Source: Dactylococcopsis salina PCC 8305 (GTDB lineage Bacteria > Cyanobacteriota > Cyanobacteriia > Cyanobacteriales > Rubidibacteraceae). Taken from it: a DNA stretch of 64,000 bases. Both the position numbers and the translations under genes were made by a program. The DNA is taken from contig NC_019780.1 of NCBI RefSeq assembly GCF_000317615.1, positions 1,881,840-1,945,839 of the forward strand, in the 5' to 3' direction. A model generated the notes under the pieces. That model made no database searches. It had not been told where the DNA came from and saw nothing but the letters and a program-made list of their open reading frames with translations. The stretch's first letter is position 1. Every line of letters begins with the position of its first letter. This document shows positions 4,298 through 13,921 of this stretch, piece after piece.

Positions 4298-5008
4298 ATG
4301 GGTGAAACCAAACCAGTGCTTCCTCGACGTTACCACCGACTCCGCGACGTTTTGAACCGACGACAAACCGATTTAACTGTCCTTTTGGAAGATGTCCACA
4401 AACCCCACAATTTCTCAGCGATTATCCGCACCTGTGACGCTGTGGGTGTATTCGCGGCGCATGGGGTGTATAACGAAGGAGATGTTCCCGCATTCAGTGA
4501 AACCGCCAAAGGAAGCGAAAAATGGGTTGATATCCACACTCATCCCGATTTAGAAACCGCAGTCAATCATCTGAAAGCGCAGAACTTTACCCTCTATGCA
4601 ACCCATCTCACGGAGAATGCTCTCGACTATCGCACCATTGACTATACTAAACCGTCCTGTATTCTCTTTGGCGCAGAAAAATGGGGAGTCAGCACAGAAG
4701 CAATGGCACTTGTGGATCAAGCGATTTATATTCCGATGTTGGGGATGGTGCAATCTTTAAATGTTTCCGTAGCAGCAGCAGTGATTCTCTTTGAAGCCCA
4801 ACGACAGCGACTGAATGCTGGTTTCTATGACCATTCTCGTTTTGAACCAGAAGTGCGCGATCGTATCTTATTCCAATGGACTTACCCTAATTTAGCCAAC
4901 GCATACGATCGAGCAGGAAAACCCTATCCCCCTCTCGGAGAAGACGGCACCATCCTCACCGATGTCGATTCGATGGAGGAAACGAAACCCAACAACCATC
5001 AAACGTAG
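4298..5008 (+). CDS. trmH: tRNA (guanosine-18-2'-O)-methyltransferase TrmH
   Basis: SpoU-family SAM enzyme of the trefoil-knot fold that 2'-O-methylates tRNA. Motif 1 NFSAIIRTCDAVGV (about 38-51, with the catalytic Arg), motif 2 FGAEKWGVS (about 124-132) and motif 3 MVQSLNVSVAAAVILFEAQRQR (about 147-168) are all present. Its start is 14 bp from the chosen start of the divergent nnr gene, so its promoter must lie inside that gene. The last codon and TAG stop belong to a REP-like repeat (CGTAGGTTGGGT). Confidence 0.88.
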   Translation: MGETKPVLPRRYHRLRDVLNRRQTDLTVLLEDVHKPHNFSAIIRTCDAVGVFAAHGVYNEGDVPAFSETAKGSEKWVDIHTHPDLETAVNHLKAQNFTLYATHLTENALDYRTIDYTKPSCILFGAEKWGVSTEAMALVDQAIYIPMLGMVQSLNVSVAAAVILFEAQRQRLNAGFYDHSRFEPEVRDRILFQWTYPNLANAYDRAGKPYPPLGEDGTILTDVDSMEETKPNNHQT

Positions 5009-5036
5009 GTTGGGTGAAGCGAAGCGTAACCCAACA
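5006..5036. repeat. REP-like repeat, family 1, at the trmH stop
   Basis: GTAGGTTGGGTG...GTAACCCAACA. Its first TAG is the stop codon of trmH, so the repeat has inserted at, or captured, the end of the gene. Confidence 0.8.
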
Positions 5037-5050
5037 CTAATCAATCTGGA

Positions 5051-5466
5051 AACCCAACAGCCAATCAAGGCTTGATCGAATCATCCCCATGCTACTATAG
5101 GAAATAGTGCAATCAATCTCATCCTTTCAGAAAGCACATCGTAACGCTTACTGTCAACGTCACTTAAAAATCTTTAACAATCCCCTCCCAAAATTAGTGT
5201 CAATAAACTTGCCAAGGCTTGACAAAATTGGGATTTCCGAAACGAAGCAATGAGGCTTTTACCCCAGTCAAATGAATTGAAGACACACCATCCCGTGGGA
5301 TTATCATTTTTCAAATCATACCTGAAACGGCGCAATCTCGTCAAGTTTTTTCTCTTGATTTTTTCCGTTAAGAAAGATAAACCGCCTGTTTTGATAGAAA
5401 AGACTAATCGAAGATTGAATTAACTTGAGCGTTACTTATTTGAACTTGACAGAATAACAGTCATGC
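5051..5466. repeat. Duplicated non-coding unit, copy 1
   Basis: About 415 bp repeated almost identically at 5509-5923 (offset 456-458 bp). No open frame of useful length exists on either strand. Both copies keep a palindrome ATCCCGTGGGAT, the nested hairpin arms GTCAA...TTGAC around GCCAAGGC, and a minus-strand promoter. Each copy is preceded by a family 1 REP, which may have mediated an unequal exchange. Confidence 0.85.
5315..5344 (-). promoter_or_regulatory. Sigma-70-type promoter in duplicated unit, copy 1
   Basis: On the minus strand, TTGACG (5344-5339) and TATGAT (5320-5315) are separated by 18 bp, giving a predicted start near 5308. The motif and spacing are identical in copy 2. The downstream conserved stretch to about 5150 has no coding frame, so a small RNA is a possible product. 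Confidence 0.5.
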
Positions 5467-5481
5467 TACCCACAGAACTAA

Positions 5482-5516
5482 AACGTAGGTTCGGTGAAGG
5501 ACACGAAACCCAACAG
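5482..5516. repeat. REP-like repeat, family 1, between duplicated units
   Basis: GTAGGTTCGGTG...CGAAACCCAACA, a slightly diverged copy lying exactly between the two duplicated units. Confidence 0.75.
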
Positions 5517-5923
5517 CCCATGAAGGCTCGATCGAATCATCCCCATGCTACTATAGGAAATAGTGCAATCAATCTCATCCTTTCAGGAAGCACATCGTAA
5601 CGCTTACTGTCAACACCGCTTCAAACTTTTTAACAATCCCCTCCCAAAATTAGTGTCAATAAACTTGCCAAGGCTTGACAAAATTTGGCTTTCCGAAACG
5701 AAGCAATGAGGCTTTTACCCTGATCATCAGAATTGAAGACAGACCATCCCGTGGGATTATTGTTTTGCTAATCATACCTGAAACGGCGCAATCTCGTCAA
5801 GTTTTTTCTCTTGATTTTTTCCGTTAAGAAAGATAAACCGCCTGTTTTAATAGAAAAGACTAATCGAAGATTGAATTAACTTGAGCGTTACTTATTTGAA
5901 CTTGACAGAATAACAGTCATGCC
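5509..5923. repeat. Duplicated non-coding unit, copy 2
   Basis: Second copy of the unit at 5051-5466. Differences cluster in a short stretch around 5719-5770 and near 5620; the remainder is nearly identical. It lies about 80 bp upstream of the small gene at 6007, so it could also be that gene's leader region. Confidence 0.85.
5771..5800 (-). promoter_or_regulatory. Sigma-70-type promoter in duplicated unit, copy 2
   Basis: TTGACG (5800-5795), an 18-bp spacer and TATGAT (5776-5771) on the minus strand, conserved exactly from copy 1 while nearby bases differ. Confidence 0.5.
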
Positions 5924-6996: not shown

Positions 6997-7089
6997 TGCT
7001 CGAATAACGAAACAAATAGTTTAATTTCGTCCCAAAACCTTCTAGAGTAATAGCAGATCAAACTTCAATCAATAATTGCAGTGGGTGAC

Positions 7090-8265
7090 ATGGGTATTGA
7101 GCGACGTAAATTTCTACAACAAACTGGACTAGCCTTATTAGCGTGGGGTGTAAATGGACAAATCAAACTGTCCTTCCCTCCCTCACTGAGAAGAAAGATA
7201 TTACAACAAACTCAAGTCTTAGCCAGTGGTAGGGGGAGAAAACTCGCCTTATTAGTGGGAATCAATCAATATAACGGAAATAATCTCAAAGGTTGTATTA
7301 CCGACGTAGAACAACAAGAAGAACTCTTACGATATCGGTTTGGGTTTCAACCGCAAGACATCCTCACCCTCAAAAATAGCGCCGCCACCCGTAATCAGAT
7401 TATTACCGCATTCCAAGAACATTTAATCAAACAAGCGAAGCCAGACGATATCATCGTCGTTCATTTCAGTGGCTGAGGAATCCCTATCCCTAGTACAGTG
7501 GGAACGCAAACCGAAGCGGTAAAATCAGCAGTGATGCGTTTAGTCCCGAAATTAAAAACGCTTTTAGCGGCGAAATTATGTCGTTTAACCGTCAATGATG
7601 GGTCATCTCGGTTAGGATTAAGAGCAACTTTAGAAACCGTTTCCGCTACAGAAGAAACCACTCCTGTGATTAGTCAAGAGACCTTTCGCTATCGTCAAGG
7701 GAAAGAGTTTTTCTTTGATACTCAATCTTTACCTTATGCCTTAGCTGGGGCGTTTCCTCAGATTGCTACAGGAACACAGATTCAATATCGTTTAGAGAAT
7801 ATCAGCGATCGATCGATTTATTGTTTGCTTTTCGGCGTTGATTCTGGGGCAAATCCTTTGTGTTTTTATTCTCCCGATTCTTCCTCCGTCACTGATCCCT
7901 CTCAAAGCACCCAACCGTTACAAAACTTAAAATTATCTCCTGGAGAAGTACGGGTGATTCCGAAAACCAATGCTTCCTATAAATGGCGCATTCCCGGACC
8001 GACAGGTTTATCAGAAATTTATCTACTCGGTAGTAGTCAACCCTTCACGCAAACTCTAAAAGTATTATCTCAAATTCCTCGATCGAAAGGACAAGGAGAA
8101 CGAATCATTGATTTATCTGATCCCTTAAAAGTCGTACAAGCGATACAGTCAGACTTACAAACAGCAAGTAATGTCCCCAGCGAAGTCACGAATGGTGATA
8201 ATAATGTTTACGCCCTTAATGTCAATTGTTGGACAACCTTGAGTTTTGTGTATCAAGTGGTTTAG
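7090..8265 (+). pseudogene. Decayed caspase-like (orthocaspase, peptidase C14) protein
   Basis: The N-terminus has a twin-arginine-like leader (RRKFLQ plus a hydrophobic stretch). The start of a p20 caspase fold follows (KLALLVGINQY, DDIIVVHFSG), and the frame meets TGA at 7474 immediately before the expected catalytic HG. The same frame resumes at once with the conserved C-terminal region (TEAVKSAVMRLVPKLKTLLAAK...). The segment with the catalytic His and Cys is absent, so the gene carries a large internal deletion plus a stop and cannot encode an active protease. The C-terminal part could still be translated from GTG 7498. Confidence 0.8.
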
Positions 8266-10502: not shown

Positions 10503-11783
10503 TTAAATAAAGAAAACGAGATTCAGTTCCCATTTTGAGGGGGTTTGGTAAAATATCTCTATGCGTTGGATGAACTCTCGGAAGTAAAACCGCCGTTCCG
10601 ATTCTGATAAGTCTAACCAGAATTGTCGCAAGGAAACTGTCTGCGCGATCGCGCTAAGGTTTTCAGGGGGAGATTGTGCAATCTGACTTTGATATGCCGC
10701 AATTTCAGTGCGTATTTTATAACGTCGCAGTTGTGCCGTTTCAGCATCTAATACCCCATGAGTTTCTAACTGGGAGACCTGCGCTAAAATCTCTTGTAAC
10801 CCCTGAATTTTGCTTTCTAAAGCCTGTTTTTGTTCCCCTAACCCTTCTGAGTTCATTTTGGCGACAGCTTGCGGTAATTCCTCACAAACGCGATCGATGC
10901 TAGAACTTAAAACCGCTTGATACGGAATCCCTTGACACTGGGGGGAATGAGGACAATGATGAGGACGTAAATATAAGTATTCTCGCTTTTTACTTCGCAT
11001 CGTCACTTGTGTTATCCTCAAAGGACACTGGCAACTTCCACAAACCACTAATCCAGCTAAAGAACGGGGGGCGCTGGCGGTGCGGGGTGGCAGTTTACGA
11101 TTTCGTCTCAGCAATCGATCGATCTGTGCGGCTTCGTCTCTGGTTAAAATCGGAATATGGGTGTTAGGAATCACGTCTCCGTTTTTGTAGCCCAAGTCTC
11201 CCCGATAGCTGGGATTCGTCAACCAATGACGACCCGTAGCAACAGAAATTTTTTTCCCATACCGACGTTCTAAATAGCGTACTGCGCCGCGTAATGATCC
11301 ATAGAGAAGGAAGTGTTCAAAAAAATCCTTAACGACGGGTGCGGTGCTACGATCGAGAATATATTTCTCTTTTCCTCTACGATAACCATAGGGCGCTTTC
11401 CCTGGTGGCGGTTGAGCATTCAAACGATTCTTGGCGTGTCCTCTTTCCAGTTGACGACGACGCTGTTGTTGGTGGAGAGAGGCAATAAAATCAAACAAAT
11501 GCTGATGATCTAATTTCTCATCGGCAACTGCTACAATTTTACAACTCAATGCTTCCAGTTGTTCGATCGAGCTTTTCACCGCGTCTAAATTTTCTCCTAA
11601 CTCTCCCCAACTGCGAACCAAAATCACATCGGGTGGCGTTAACCCACAATCGACTAAAAGTTGTTCCCATTCTTGTCTCCCTCCCCGATCATGGTAAACG
11701 CGATCGATCGTTCTTCCCCAATCATACTTTTCTTCAGGAGAATCCAGAAGCGGATCACTGTAGCAATAAGCAAAAACCGTCAT
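10503..11783 (-). CDS. Large serine recombinase family protein (XisF-like)
   Basis: It has a resolvase-like N-terminus (about 1-110; AYCYSDPL with a candidate catalytic Ser near residue 9, and VILVRSWGELGEN). A recombinase domain follows (PPPGKAPYGYRRG..., about 125-235). Then comes a zinc-ribbon with paired cysteines (CGSCQCPL and later HCPHSPQC) and a C-terminal coiled coil. The architecture matches large serine recombinases such as cyanobacterial XisF. The N-terminal catalytic region is divergent from canonical resolvases (no SxxxQ motif), so activity is uncertain. Its ATG overlaps the stop of the upstream VOC gene by 4 bp. Confidence 0.75.
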   Translation of the reverse strand: MTVFAYCYSDPLLDSPEEKYDWGRTIDRVYHDRGGRQEWEQLLVDCGLTPPDVILVRSWGELGENLDAVKSSIEQLEALSCKIVAVADEKLDHQHLFDFIASLHQQQRRRQLERGHAKNRLNAQPPPGKAPYGYRRGKEKYILDRSTAPVVKDFFEHFLLYGSLRGAVRYLERRYGKKISVATGRHWLTNPSYRGDLGYKNGDVIPNTHIPILTRDEAAQIDRLLRRNRKLPPRTASAPRSLAGLVVCGSCQCPLRITQVTMRSKKREYLYLRPHHCPHSPQCQGIPYQAVLSSSIDRVCEELPQAVAKMNSEGLGEQKQALESKIQGLQEILAQVSQLETHGVLDAETAQLRRYKIRTEIAAYQSQIAQSPPENLSAIAQTVSLRQFWLDLSESERRFYFREFIQRIEIFYQTPSKWELNLVFFI

Positions 11784-12473: not shown

Positions 12474-13921
12474 GATTCTCCGACTACATCGCGTTAGCGA
12501 TTAGTCGTGGGAGGAAGGGCGCACATCTTCACTAAGTTGTTATAATCAGAGAAGTTCGTGAGGTAAAGAAAATGAAACAGGTTATCACCGCCAAGTTAAG
12601 GTTAGACCTTTCTCAAGAGCAGAAAACGCTTTTGCGAGAGGTTTCTTTAGCTTATCGTGATGCTCTGAATTATATTTCACAAGTTGCCTTCGACAATAAT
12701 CGAACCAGCAGTGCCAACAAACTCCAGAAGCTAGCTTACTACGACATTCGCGACCAATACAGTTTACCATCTCAGATGGCTTGTAATGTTTGTCGTCAGG
12801 TAGGAGCAACTTATCGAAGCCTCTGGACTAAGGTTAAACAAAACAGCCAACATCGCAAACAGGGAAAAACCAAAAAAGGTACAAGGGTTTAGATAACCCA
12901 CCGCACTTTGTTTCTAGAACCTGTAACCTTAACTATGGTAGGGACTTCTCTTTCGTTAAAGAAGGAATTAGTCTCATTACCTTACAAGGTCGAATCAAAG
13001 TTTCTTATTCTGGCTATCAAAAACACTTAGACTTGATTAAGTCTGGAGAGGCTAAAGCCAAAGGAGCAAAGATTTACTATACTCCTTCTAATAAGAATTA
13101 TTACTTATTAGTCAGCTTAGAAATAGAGAAACCTGATATCGAACCCACAGACATTAAACGGGTTAGCGGTGTTGATGTTGGTCAACGATATCTAGCTGTT
13201 GAGACTGATACTCAAAATCAGGTCAGTTTCTACAACGGAAAATCAACTATTCATAAAGCAAATCATTACCAAAGGAGAAGAAAATCGTTACAGCGCAAAG
13301 GCACTCGTTCCGCTAAAAGAAGACTGAAGAAGTTATCAGGACGAGAGAGACGGTTTCGCGCTGATATTAACCACCAAGTTTCTAAGAAGGTCGCTAAATC
13401 TAACTCCTTAATTGGGTTAGAAGATTTAACCCACATTAGAGAAAGAACTAATCCTCGCTGTAAAGGTAAAAAAGCATCTAAAAAACAGAAAAAGGCTAAC
13501 CGTAAACAAACCAGTTGGTCTTTTGCTGAACTCCAAAGTTTCATTGACTATAAAGCAGTATTTAATGATTCTTTGGCAATTAAAGTAGATGCCGATTACA
13601 CCTCACAAACTTGTCCTCATTGTGGACATACATCTAGAGGGAATCGACCTAACAAGGGATTAAATTTTCACTGTGAAAACTGTGGGTTTGATCTTCATGC
13701 AGATTTGGTGGGAGCTAGAAATATAACAATGAGAACGCTACTTGTTCGGCAAGACTGGGCGAGTACGGGTAGTTTGTCAGCCTGCCCAGATGATCCTTCG
13801 GGATCGTTGGATGTTTCGTCGGATGAAGCCAAAGCCATGCGCCTTTCGAGGTTCATGGAACTGCGGTGGACGGCAGAAACAAGCCCCAATCACATCGCGT
13901 TTAGCGATTGATTGCGGGTAG
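12474..13921 (+). mobile_element. IS200/IS605-type TnpB-only element
   Basis: The boundaries are deduced from the interrupted gene: removing 12474-13921 restores its frame. Near the left end is a hairpin (GACTAC-ATCGC...GCGAT-TAGTC, about 12483-12506). Near the right end is a similar hairpin (CAATCA-ATCGC...GCGAT-TGATTG, about 13887-13914). There is no target duplication, as expected for this superfamily. No TnpA gene is present, so movement would need a transposase supplied elsewhere. Confidence 0.75.
12572..13911 (+). CDS. tnpB: RNA-guided nuclease TnpB (OrfB), frameshifted
   Basis: The first part (12572-12877) holds the N-terminal domain (MKQVITAKLRLDLSQEQK...). A -1 shift at a run of six A (12872-12877) continues as KRYKGLDNPPHFVSRT, the expected family block. 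The RuvC acids are visible: Asp in SGVDVGQRYLAVE, Glu in IGLEDLTHIRE and the last Asp in DLHADLVGARN. The zinc finger CPHCGH...CENCG is intact. As written the gene is broken unless A6 slippage or a sequence error explains the shift. The stop lies inside the right-end hairpin, the area where omega RNA usually arises. Confidence 0.8.

Follow-up and report, generated by a model that had tools for sequence, protein, structure and literature searches.

Within the 64,000-nucleotide stretch of the Dactylococcopsis salina PCC 8305 genome analysed here (NC_019780.1, positions 1,881,840 to 1,945,839; hereafter the window), a non-coding block occurs twice in succession, which raises the question of whether the pair is a mere duplication or belongs to something that the cell uses, and in the latter case whether as DNA or as RNA. 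A first-pass annotation had proposed twin small RNAs transcribed leftward, or a duplicated leader. The comparison of the pair with its relatives in the host genome, in the genus and in other cyanobacteria leads us to a family of intergenic elements, for which we weigh several explanations below.

The tandem pair in the window

The block is indeed present twice, at a spacing of 456 nt both in a first alignment (92% identity over 300 nt) and in the longer one summarised in Table 1, and not at the 457 nt initially reported. The TTGACG-18-TATGAT promoter predicted on the minus strand stands unchanged in both units with 10 of 12 consensus matches, and the palindrome and the inner inverted repeat described with it are likewise identical between them. 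Sigma-70-like sites are not rare here, with six in the region of this promoter (P1) against 2.4 expected (sd 1.5). The claim that the differences cluster outside these features is not borne out within the pair, as the clustering of its 24 differences is not significant (longest identical run 79 nt, P about 0.14); the pair alone could therefore be a mere tandem duplication and proves nothing. Over the family as a whole, uneven conservation is clear.

The pair adjoins trmH and points at the 3' end of this gene. The locus is a synteny break whose two neighbours are non-adjacent in relatives, so that no empty site can be read there. GTAG-tagged palindromic repeats border the first unit and, in degenerate form, lie between the units; dozens of similar stretches occur genome-wide, often near copies of the element. 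They are REP-like and may be compared with the REP repeats described in PMC3733652.

Table 1. Features of the tandem pair and of hairpin-bearing element copies in the host genome (positions in the window unless a contig is given)
Feature	Position	Strand	Remark
Tandemly duplicated block, unit 1 (element plus flank)	5049..5466	.	94.3% identity over 418 nt
Tandemly duplicated block, unit 2	5505..5922	.	94.3% identity over 418 nt
Element copy 1, right-end motif to left-end TGTCAA/TTGACA	5134..5451	-	Boundaries from family alignment
Element copy 2	5590..5907	-	Boundaries from family alignment
Predicted promoter P1, copy 1, TTGACG-18-TATGAT	5315..5344	-	Best conserved family block
Predicted promoter P1, copy 2	5771..5800	-	Best conserved family block
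HLR1-like site, copy 1, TTTATCTTTCTTAACG	5366..5381	-	10/14 consensus positions; weak
HLR1-like site, copy 2	5822..5837	-	10/14; weak
Leader block ATCCCACGGGAT / palindrome ATCCCGTGGGAT, copy 1	5290..5301	-	Same letters in both units
Leader block / palindrome, copy 2	5746..5757	-	Same letters in both units
TGTCAA...TTGACA inverted repeat beside conserved T-run, copy 1	5198..5224	-	Identical between units
TGTCAA...TTGACA inverted repeat, copy 2	5654..5680	-	Identical between units
Right-end motif P2, TTGACA-N14-GTGC, copy 1	5134..5157	-	Rigid spacing in family
Right-end motif P2, copy 2	5590..5613	-	Rigid spacing in family
GTAG-tagged palindromic repeat (REP-like), borders unit 1	5005..5036	+	Inverted repeat; dozens of similar genomic stretches
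Degenerate GTAG-tagged repeat, between units	5485..5515	+	No inverted repeat detected
Copies with hairpin in P1: L017, L021, L025 (near 3091), L026 (near 3041)	G000:C1:1423416, 2590207, 2833273, 3380280		

Other features of the window were recorded in passing. At 7081–8265 a Peptidase_C14 (caspase-domain) frame, which stops at 7476, is followed in phase by a DUF4384 frame from 7498 on, and this seems to be a metacaspase-like gene split by an in-frame stop. Positions 10503–11783 encode an integrase-like protein (phrog_95), and 13033–13911 hold a transposase frame (phrog_506) that is TnpB-like by eye; the frame just upstream of the latter (12572–12892) gave no family match.

A family of intergenic elements in the host genus

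A DNA search of the host genome, a single contig of 3.78 Mb, returned at least 25 further places with 70–89% identity to the block, as well as many matches to the GTAG-tagged repeat, among the 40 candidates scored out of 478. A model built from sequence only with 27 copies (R1) was then run on nine genomes, six of them (G000 to G005) from a single genus. It found 29 strong copies in the host (G000; cut-off of 65 bits or more), six in G001, two in G002 and one each in G003 and G005, which form the genus set of 39 copies; none was found in G004, of the same genus and 85% complete, or in three other genera of the host family. Four weak matches in the host (19.6–24 bits) were excluded from the count; one of these (L090, 3492–3628) was matched by a second model (R2, built on 32 of the 39 copies) as a diverged partial copy, comprising the right part without P1. 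Besides the window pair, close-set copies are found at four host sites (C1 near 3.615, 2.855, 2.593 and 0.149 Mb). At one locus (L009, 3010–4601), two copies lie 1116 bp apart and the tandem duplication includes a 104-aa gene.

The two window blocks are a tandem duplicate within this family of intergenic, non-coding elements of about 320 bp. The conservation of the promoter supports the idea of leftward RNAs; twins specific to this locus do not survive the comparison, the pair being two tandem copies among 29 strong ones.

Conserved blocks at fixed distances

Read in the direction of the putative transcript, which is the minus strand of the window, most genus copies have AT-rich blocks, then an HLR1-like repeat, TTTACAttTCTTAAC, and then the P1 stretch AAAATATTGACGARATTRCGCC.TTTCAGGTATGAT. 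The conserved blocks of the 39 copies stand at rigid spacing, the P1 consensus among them reading TTGACGA-TTRCG-TTTCAG-TATnAT. In most copies P1 is followed by a leader block, AATAATCC.A.GGGA..TCTGTC, then by TTCGTT and then by CTTGTCAAG; the -35 and -10 boxes together with the leader make up the most conserved stretch of the family. Further on comes a T-run whose ATTTT is invariant among the 27 and the 32 aligned copies, and finally a right-end TTGACA (P2), often with RTGC 12–14 nt beyond it. From the start of TTGACG to the start of the last TTGAC, the P1–P2 distance is 185–188 nt in 39 of 39 genus copies (184–187 when counted from the second base); the letters between the conserved blocks vary and this length stays fixed. 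The left-end TGTCAA is variable, even a loose match being absent from 11 of the 39 copies and shifting in position in the rest. Near the T-run a TGTCAA is kept in most copies, and its pairing with TTGACA is not.

Ten pairs of copies at five shared loci were compared with their shuffled counterparts; six of these pairs are from the ntcA locus and are not independent, and single values are rough as end gaps in the aligner were free. With these limits, mean identity exceeded the shuffle expectation by 0.37–0.39 for P1, the leader and the right block, by 0.21 left of P1, by 0.11 in the middle and by 0.05 beyond the element; the upstream flank, which is partly coding, gave 0.23. Uniform divergence of the block among relatives had been named at the outset as counting against the proposed RNAs or leader, and conservation is instead block-wise.

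An identical hairpin of about 48 bp was observed inside the -35 box of P1 (TTGA^C), at the same point, in four of the 29 host copies (Table 1). With up to three mismatches allowed, these are its only matches in the host genome; outside the element, G001 has one version with three mismatches and G002 has two. The insert has the look of a very small mobile hairpin with a specific target site.

Neither a reading frame nor a conserved fold

Lack of coding potential, noted already for the pair, extends to the whole family. There is no long frame over the block, no copy is stop-free over 270 nt in any of the six frames, and on shorter spans the stop-free copies number no more than 5 of 39 per frame, with neither a conserved frame nor 3-base periodicity; protein-coding sequence was ruled out on these grounds. 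On both strands, almost all frames contain fewer stops than simple shuffles do (e.g. 67 versus 108), which we read as a composition effect.

The hairpins that the annotation had emphasised do not hold as a general feature. RNAalifold predicted seven pairs over 27 copies, none of them covarying, covariation analysis over 39 copies gave no helix, and six single 150-nt pieces folded like their shuffles (z-scores of -0.37 to 1.59); a structured non-coding RNA is thus unsupported. Searches of the whole window against Rfam yielded no match at the gathering score, and at a relaxed threshold the block and the copy of one relative gave chance-level matches only. Intrinsic terminators were not convincing in most copies: the T-run is conserved in the genus, and a terminator at this point was rejected because the hairpins beside it are weak outside a single genome of another family, G392.

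Two further candidates were discarded. Phage or plasmid origin was rejected for want of a viral or plasmid match in collections from which records of the host or very near genomes were possibly excluded, the P1 motif pattern giving no match in viral contigs. An origin of replication tied to CyRepA1 was rejected as no CyRepA1 scored above the cut-off in the host, despite its 29 copies; the host DnaA gene (C1:44–1363) lies away from the copies. Among titles and abstract openings of the open-licence literature, no description of the element was found.

Occurrence in other cyanobacteria

Public genomes gave no match to an initial, strict motif pattern. With a looser pattern for the P1 block, 29 stretches of the public genome collection were matched, all titled cyanobacteria: 19 contigs of Limnofasciculus baicalensis, a number in which one copy split between contig ends may be counted twice, five of UBA11153, and five single ones from two Microcoleus, two Oscillatoriales MAGs and one uncultured cyanobacterium. 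Of 291 genomes of the class, three gave a match to model R2 (200 positions): G000, G002 and, from another family, G009. Under strict filters, a core model across lineages (R3, 34 chosen rows) found matches in 11 of 388 class genomes, including two of the host genus; in depth, it found them in 13 of 28 selected genomes, some of these matches being weak or evidently due to chance. The alignment across lineages comprised 13 of the 39 genus copies, 4 of 5 Microcoleus-type and 14 of 16 far copies, and no Limnofasciculus-type copy.

The P1–P2 layout could be read in five other families, represented by G009 and Microcoleus-type copies together with G392 (one family, f2), and by G035, G039, G324 and G013. 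The distance to P2 is 182–192 nt in Microcoleus-type copies, G392, G035 and G013, and 203–205 nt in G039 and G324. Written as a regular expression, the right-end motif is present in 16 of 29, 3 of 6, 0 of 2, 0 of 1 and 0 of 1 genus copies by genome, in 4 of 5 Microcoleus-type copies (one, L200, ends before the right end), and in 5/5, 3/5, 1/2, 2/3 and 1/1 copies of G392, G035, G039, G324 and G013, respectively; its frequency in shuffles is 0.4%. None of 22 Limnofasciculus-type copies has it, and these keep the P1 half only; 150 nt of downstream sequence were demanded for this count, which excludes 2 of 24 such copies. From this and later counts L231, L233, L236, L239 and L242 were excluded as weak, coding-like or chance-like, and L206–L209, L211 and L216 were read and left uncounted.

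A single strict pattern of the whole layout found matches in 3 of 388 genomes (10 matches in G000, one in G009 and six, two of them overlapping, in G035), and the reversed control matched 0 of 388. No match to this pattern was found in G392 or G002. The copies of G035 keep ACGA..TT.CG, and the three that were read lack the TTG of the -35 box.

Gene context and shared loci

The copies lie between genes in both orientations, a few being overlapped by short mechanical frames. Some point at the next gene (ntcA, mnmG, a dnd-related methyltransferase gene and trpS follow in sense direction), and others face the 3' end of a convergent gene. Such placement fits an independent transcription unit and not the promoter of a neighbour.

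The commonest genus copy lies upstream of ntcA, assigned by TIGR03697, in four of the six genus genomes (G000, G001, G003 and G005). Judged by NtcA, the relatives of the host are cyanobacteria. The corresponding copy is degenerate in G002 and was not found by the model in G004, supporting that it is not essential to ntcA. By eye, G004 shows a possible relic upstream of its ntcA. The sole copies of G003 and G005 (L087 and L088) were also seen to lie between a CyRepA1 replication-protein gene and ntcA. A copy upstream of mnmG is common to G000 and G001, which have three further loci in common. In a tree of the 39 copies, the mnmG pair groups together with a recent G001 duplicate (96/78) and the pair from a kef-like locus also groups (87/92); the dnd-related, ridA and ntcA copies are not resolved into locus groups.

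An HLR1-like site in part of the family

The RpaB (HLR1) motif is given as KTTACAWW-N2-KTTACAWW (PMC13421787, PMC9241938). Within 60 nt upstream of P1, the best match to it falls 35 to 37 nt ahead of TTGACG in 36 of the 39 copies from the genus, with a mean score of 10.9 of 14 compared to 9.26 in shuffles (sd 0.13) and with 14 of 14 in the ntcA copy; when 110 nt are searched, the best match falls at -36/-37 in 23 of 39 copies only. The best match was located at -35/-36 in 6 of 7 copies of G035, from another family, and at -77/-78 in 11 of 18 Limnofasciculus-type copies. In copies of the genus, of G035 and of Limnofasciculus type, scores exceeded those of all 200 shuffles; they did not in the other five of eight groups (Microcoleus-type, G392, G039, G324 and G013). 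Control by light or redox state is a reasonable guess for this part of the family only.

What the element may be

The element is probably a working regulatory unit. Our preferred reading, a tentative one with a little under an even chance, is that of a free-standing, multi-copy cassette made of a promoter and a short non-coding RNA, which would also provide the leader of a gene lying downstream in sense. The sigma-70-type P1, together with a regulator site upstream of it that is HLR1-like in certain lineages, would drive synthesis of a short and largely unstructured RNA. Its 5' end would lie about 36 nt past the first T of TTGACG; its 3' end would be reached near +150, at the conserved T-run, or near +190, at the right-end motif, which would give an RNA of about 115 to 180 nt. 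This RNA would carry the conserved single-stranded blocks AAUCC.A.GGG and AAACCCUGAUU..UCGU, and copies would multiply through local tandem duplication and dispersal. Upstream of ntcA, mnmG, the dnd-related methyltransferase gene or trpS, the cassette could double as a leader, in the manner of actuatons. The sequences show a conserved family with a fixed layout, whose copies stand between genes in either orientation; transcription, the ends of the RNA, light or redox control and any function in trans are inferred.

The recurrence of the P1 core across lineages, the strong conservation of the promoter boxes and leader, the near-constant position of the HLR1-like match in most genus and G035 copies, the 29 strong host copies, the copies retained at shared loci and the placement in both orientations all count in favour of a cassette. 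Against it stand the lack of a covarying fold, or of any fold above shuffles, and of a convincing terminator in most copies; the HLR1-like site, weak in the window copies and at shuffle level in five groups; the three G035 copies read without the TTG of the -35 box; and the position of G392 and G002 outside the strict layout. The main argument against it is that the P1–P2 length is far more rigid than an unstructured RNA needs.

That same rigidity argues for a nucleoprotein site at the level of DNA, where an OmpR-type regulator, RNA polymerase and others would sit on conserved blocks at fixed helical spacing and act by looping the DNA, bordering domains or altering supercoiling locally, any RNA being incidental. 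This possible, though unlikely, explanation accounts for a distance that is nearly constant throughout the genus and falls into two narrow ranges where the right-end motif was found elsewhere, for variable letters between the blocks with no RNA fold, for a layout pattern with matches in three genomes and none for its reversed control, and for placement independent of orientation. However, the strongest block resembles an ordinary promoter complete with its -10 box, the binding proteins are hypothetical, and the Limnofasciculus-type copies keep the P1 half alone.

Ongoing transposition of a MITE-like, non-autonomous repeat, with an outward promoter present by chance or serving spread, is an unlikely source of the likeness among copies. 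It would explain the abundance of copies in the host and on many Limnofasciculus contigs compared with one or few elsewhere, their occurrence both in tandem and dispersed, and the TGTCAA/TTGACA near both ends of many of them. But it leaves unexplained the internal conservation (P1, leader and T-run, not just the termini), the persistence of shared-locus copies between species and the missing terminal repeats, since no extended terminal inverted repeat exists beyond at most the 6-bp TGTCAA/TTGACA, whose left member is missing in 11 of 39 copies. Moreover, single-copy genomes retain the layout, and an unsystematic look revealed no partner transposase or target duplication.

Distinctly unlikely is a broader idea, that of an ancient cyanobacterial DNA element in which a multi-protein complex keeps a light- or redox-responsive promoter at a fixed distance from a second motif some 186 bp downstream of it, dozens of intergenic sites reporting or setting the transcriptional or topological state of the chromosome and no RNA acting in trans. 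Finally, we regard as very improbable that the copies are duplicated cis-acting promoters or leaders serving just their neighbouring genes, in a regulon that arose as one promoter, perhaps the ntcA one, was copied: the sole copies of G003 and G005 and one each in G000 and G001 do point at ntcA, and mnmG, the dnd-related methyltransferase gene and trpS are also downstream in sense, but a purely local role is contradicted by the orientation of the many copies, including the window pair beside trmH, that face the 3' end of the next gene, and the ntcA copy has decayed in G002.

With members in several cyanobacterial families and as many as 29 strong copies in one genome, these non-coding elements would make up a family not described before, apparently under selection without RNA structure or coding capacity. 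Its sequence would link it to photosynthetic redox control in some lineages and, at the commonest genus copy, to the nitrogen regulator ntcA.

Comparison with known systems

Correia-type elements are bacterial MITE-like repeats. The element resembles them, as well as the bacterial MITE Nezha (named in PMC3733652), in being short, non-coding, dispersed and intergenic with a possible promoter; it differs from such repeats in having no clear terminal inverted repeat, in being conserved inside and in being retained at shared loci. With the HLR1/RpaB-regulated promoters presented in PMC13421787 and PMC9241938, it has in common a direct repeat of 10-bp period upstream of a sigma-70-type promoter. 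Its matches are partial, and their inferred position is about -73 to -58 and not the -66 to -45 of those promoters.

The actuatons of Synechocystis, as characterised in PMC5386190, are sRNA cassettes that read-through turns into 5' leaders as well. The element would match them in its combination of a promoter and a short RNA, in its shifting gene contexts and in the copies lying sense-upstream of genes. Actuatons are defined by mapped transcripts, whereas the element is known here from its sequence, with up to 29 copies per genome, many of which have a convergent or distant downstream gene. Yfr2, a multi-gene family of cyanobacterial sRNAs, has RNAs of 65–80 nt in Synechocystis (PMC5386190); the element, which has no Rfam match, is set apart from it by this description and not by alignment. 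Like Yfr2 (PMC5386190; see also PMC6778093), it forms several paralogues per genome, occupies varied contexts and is widespread in cyanobacteria.
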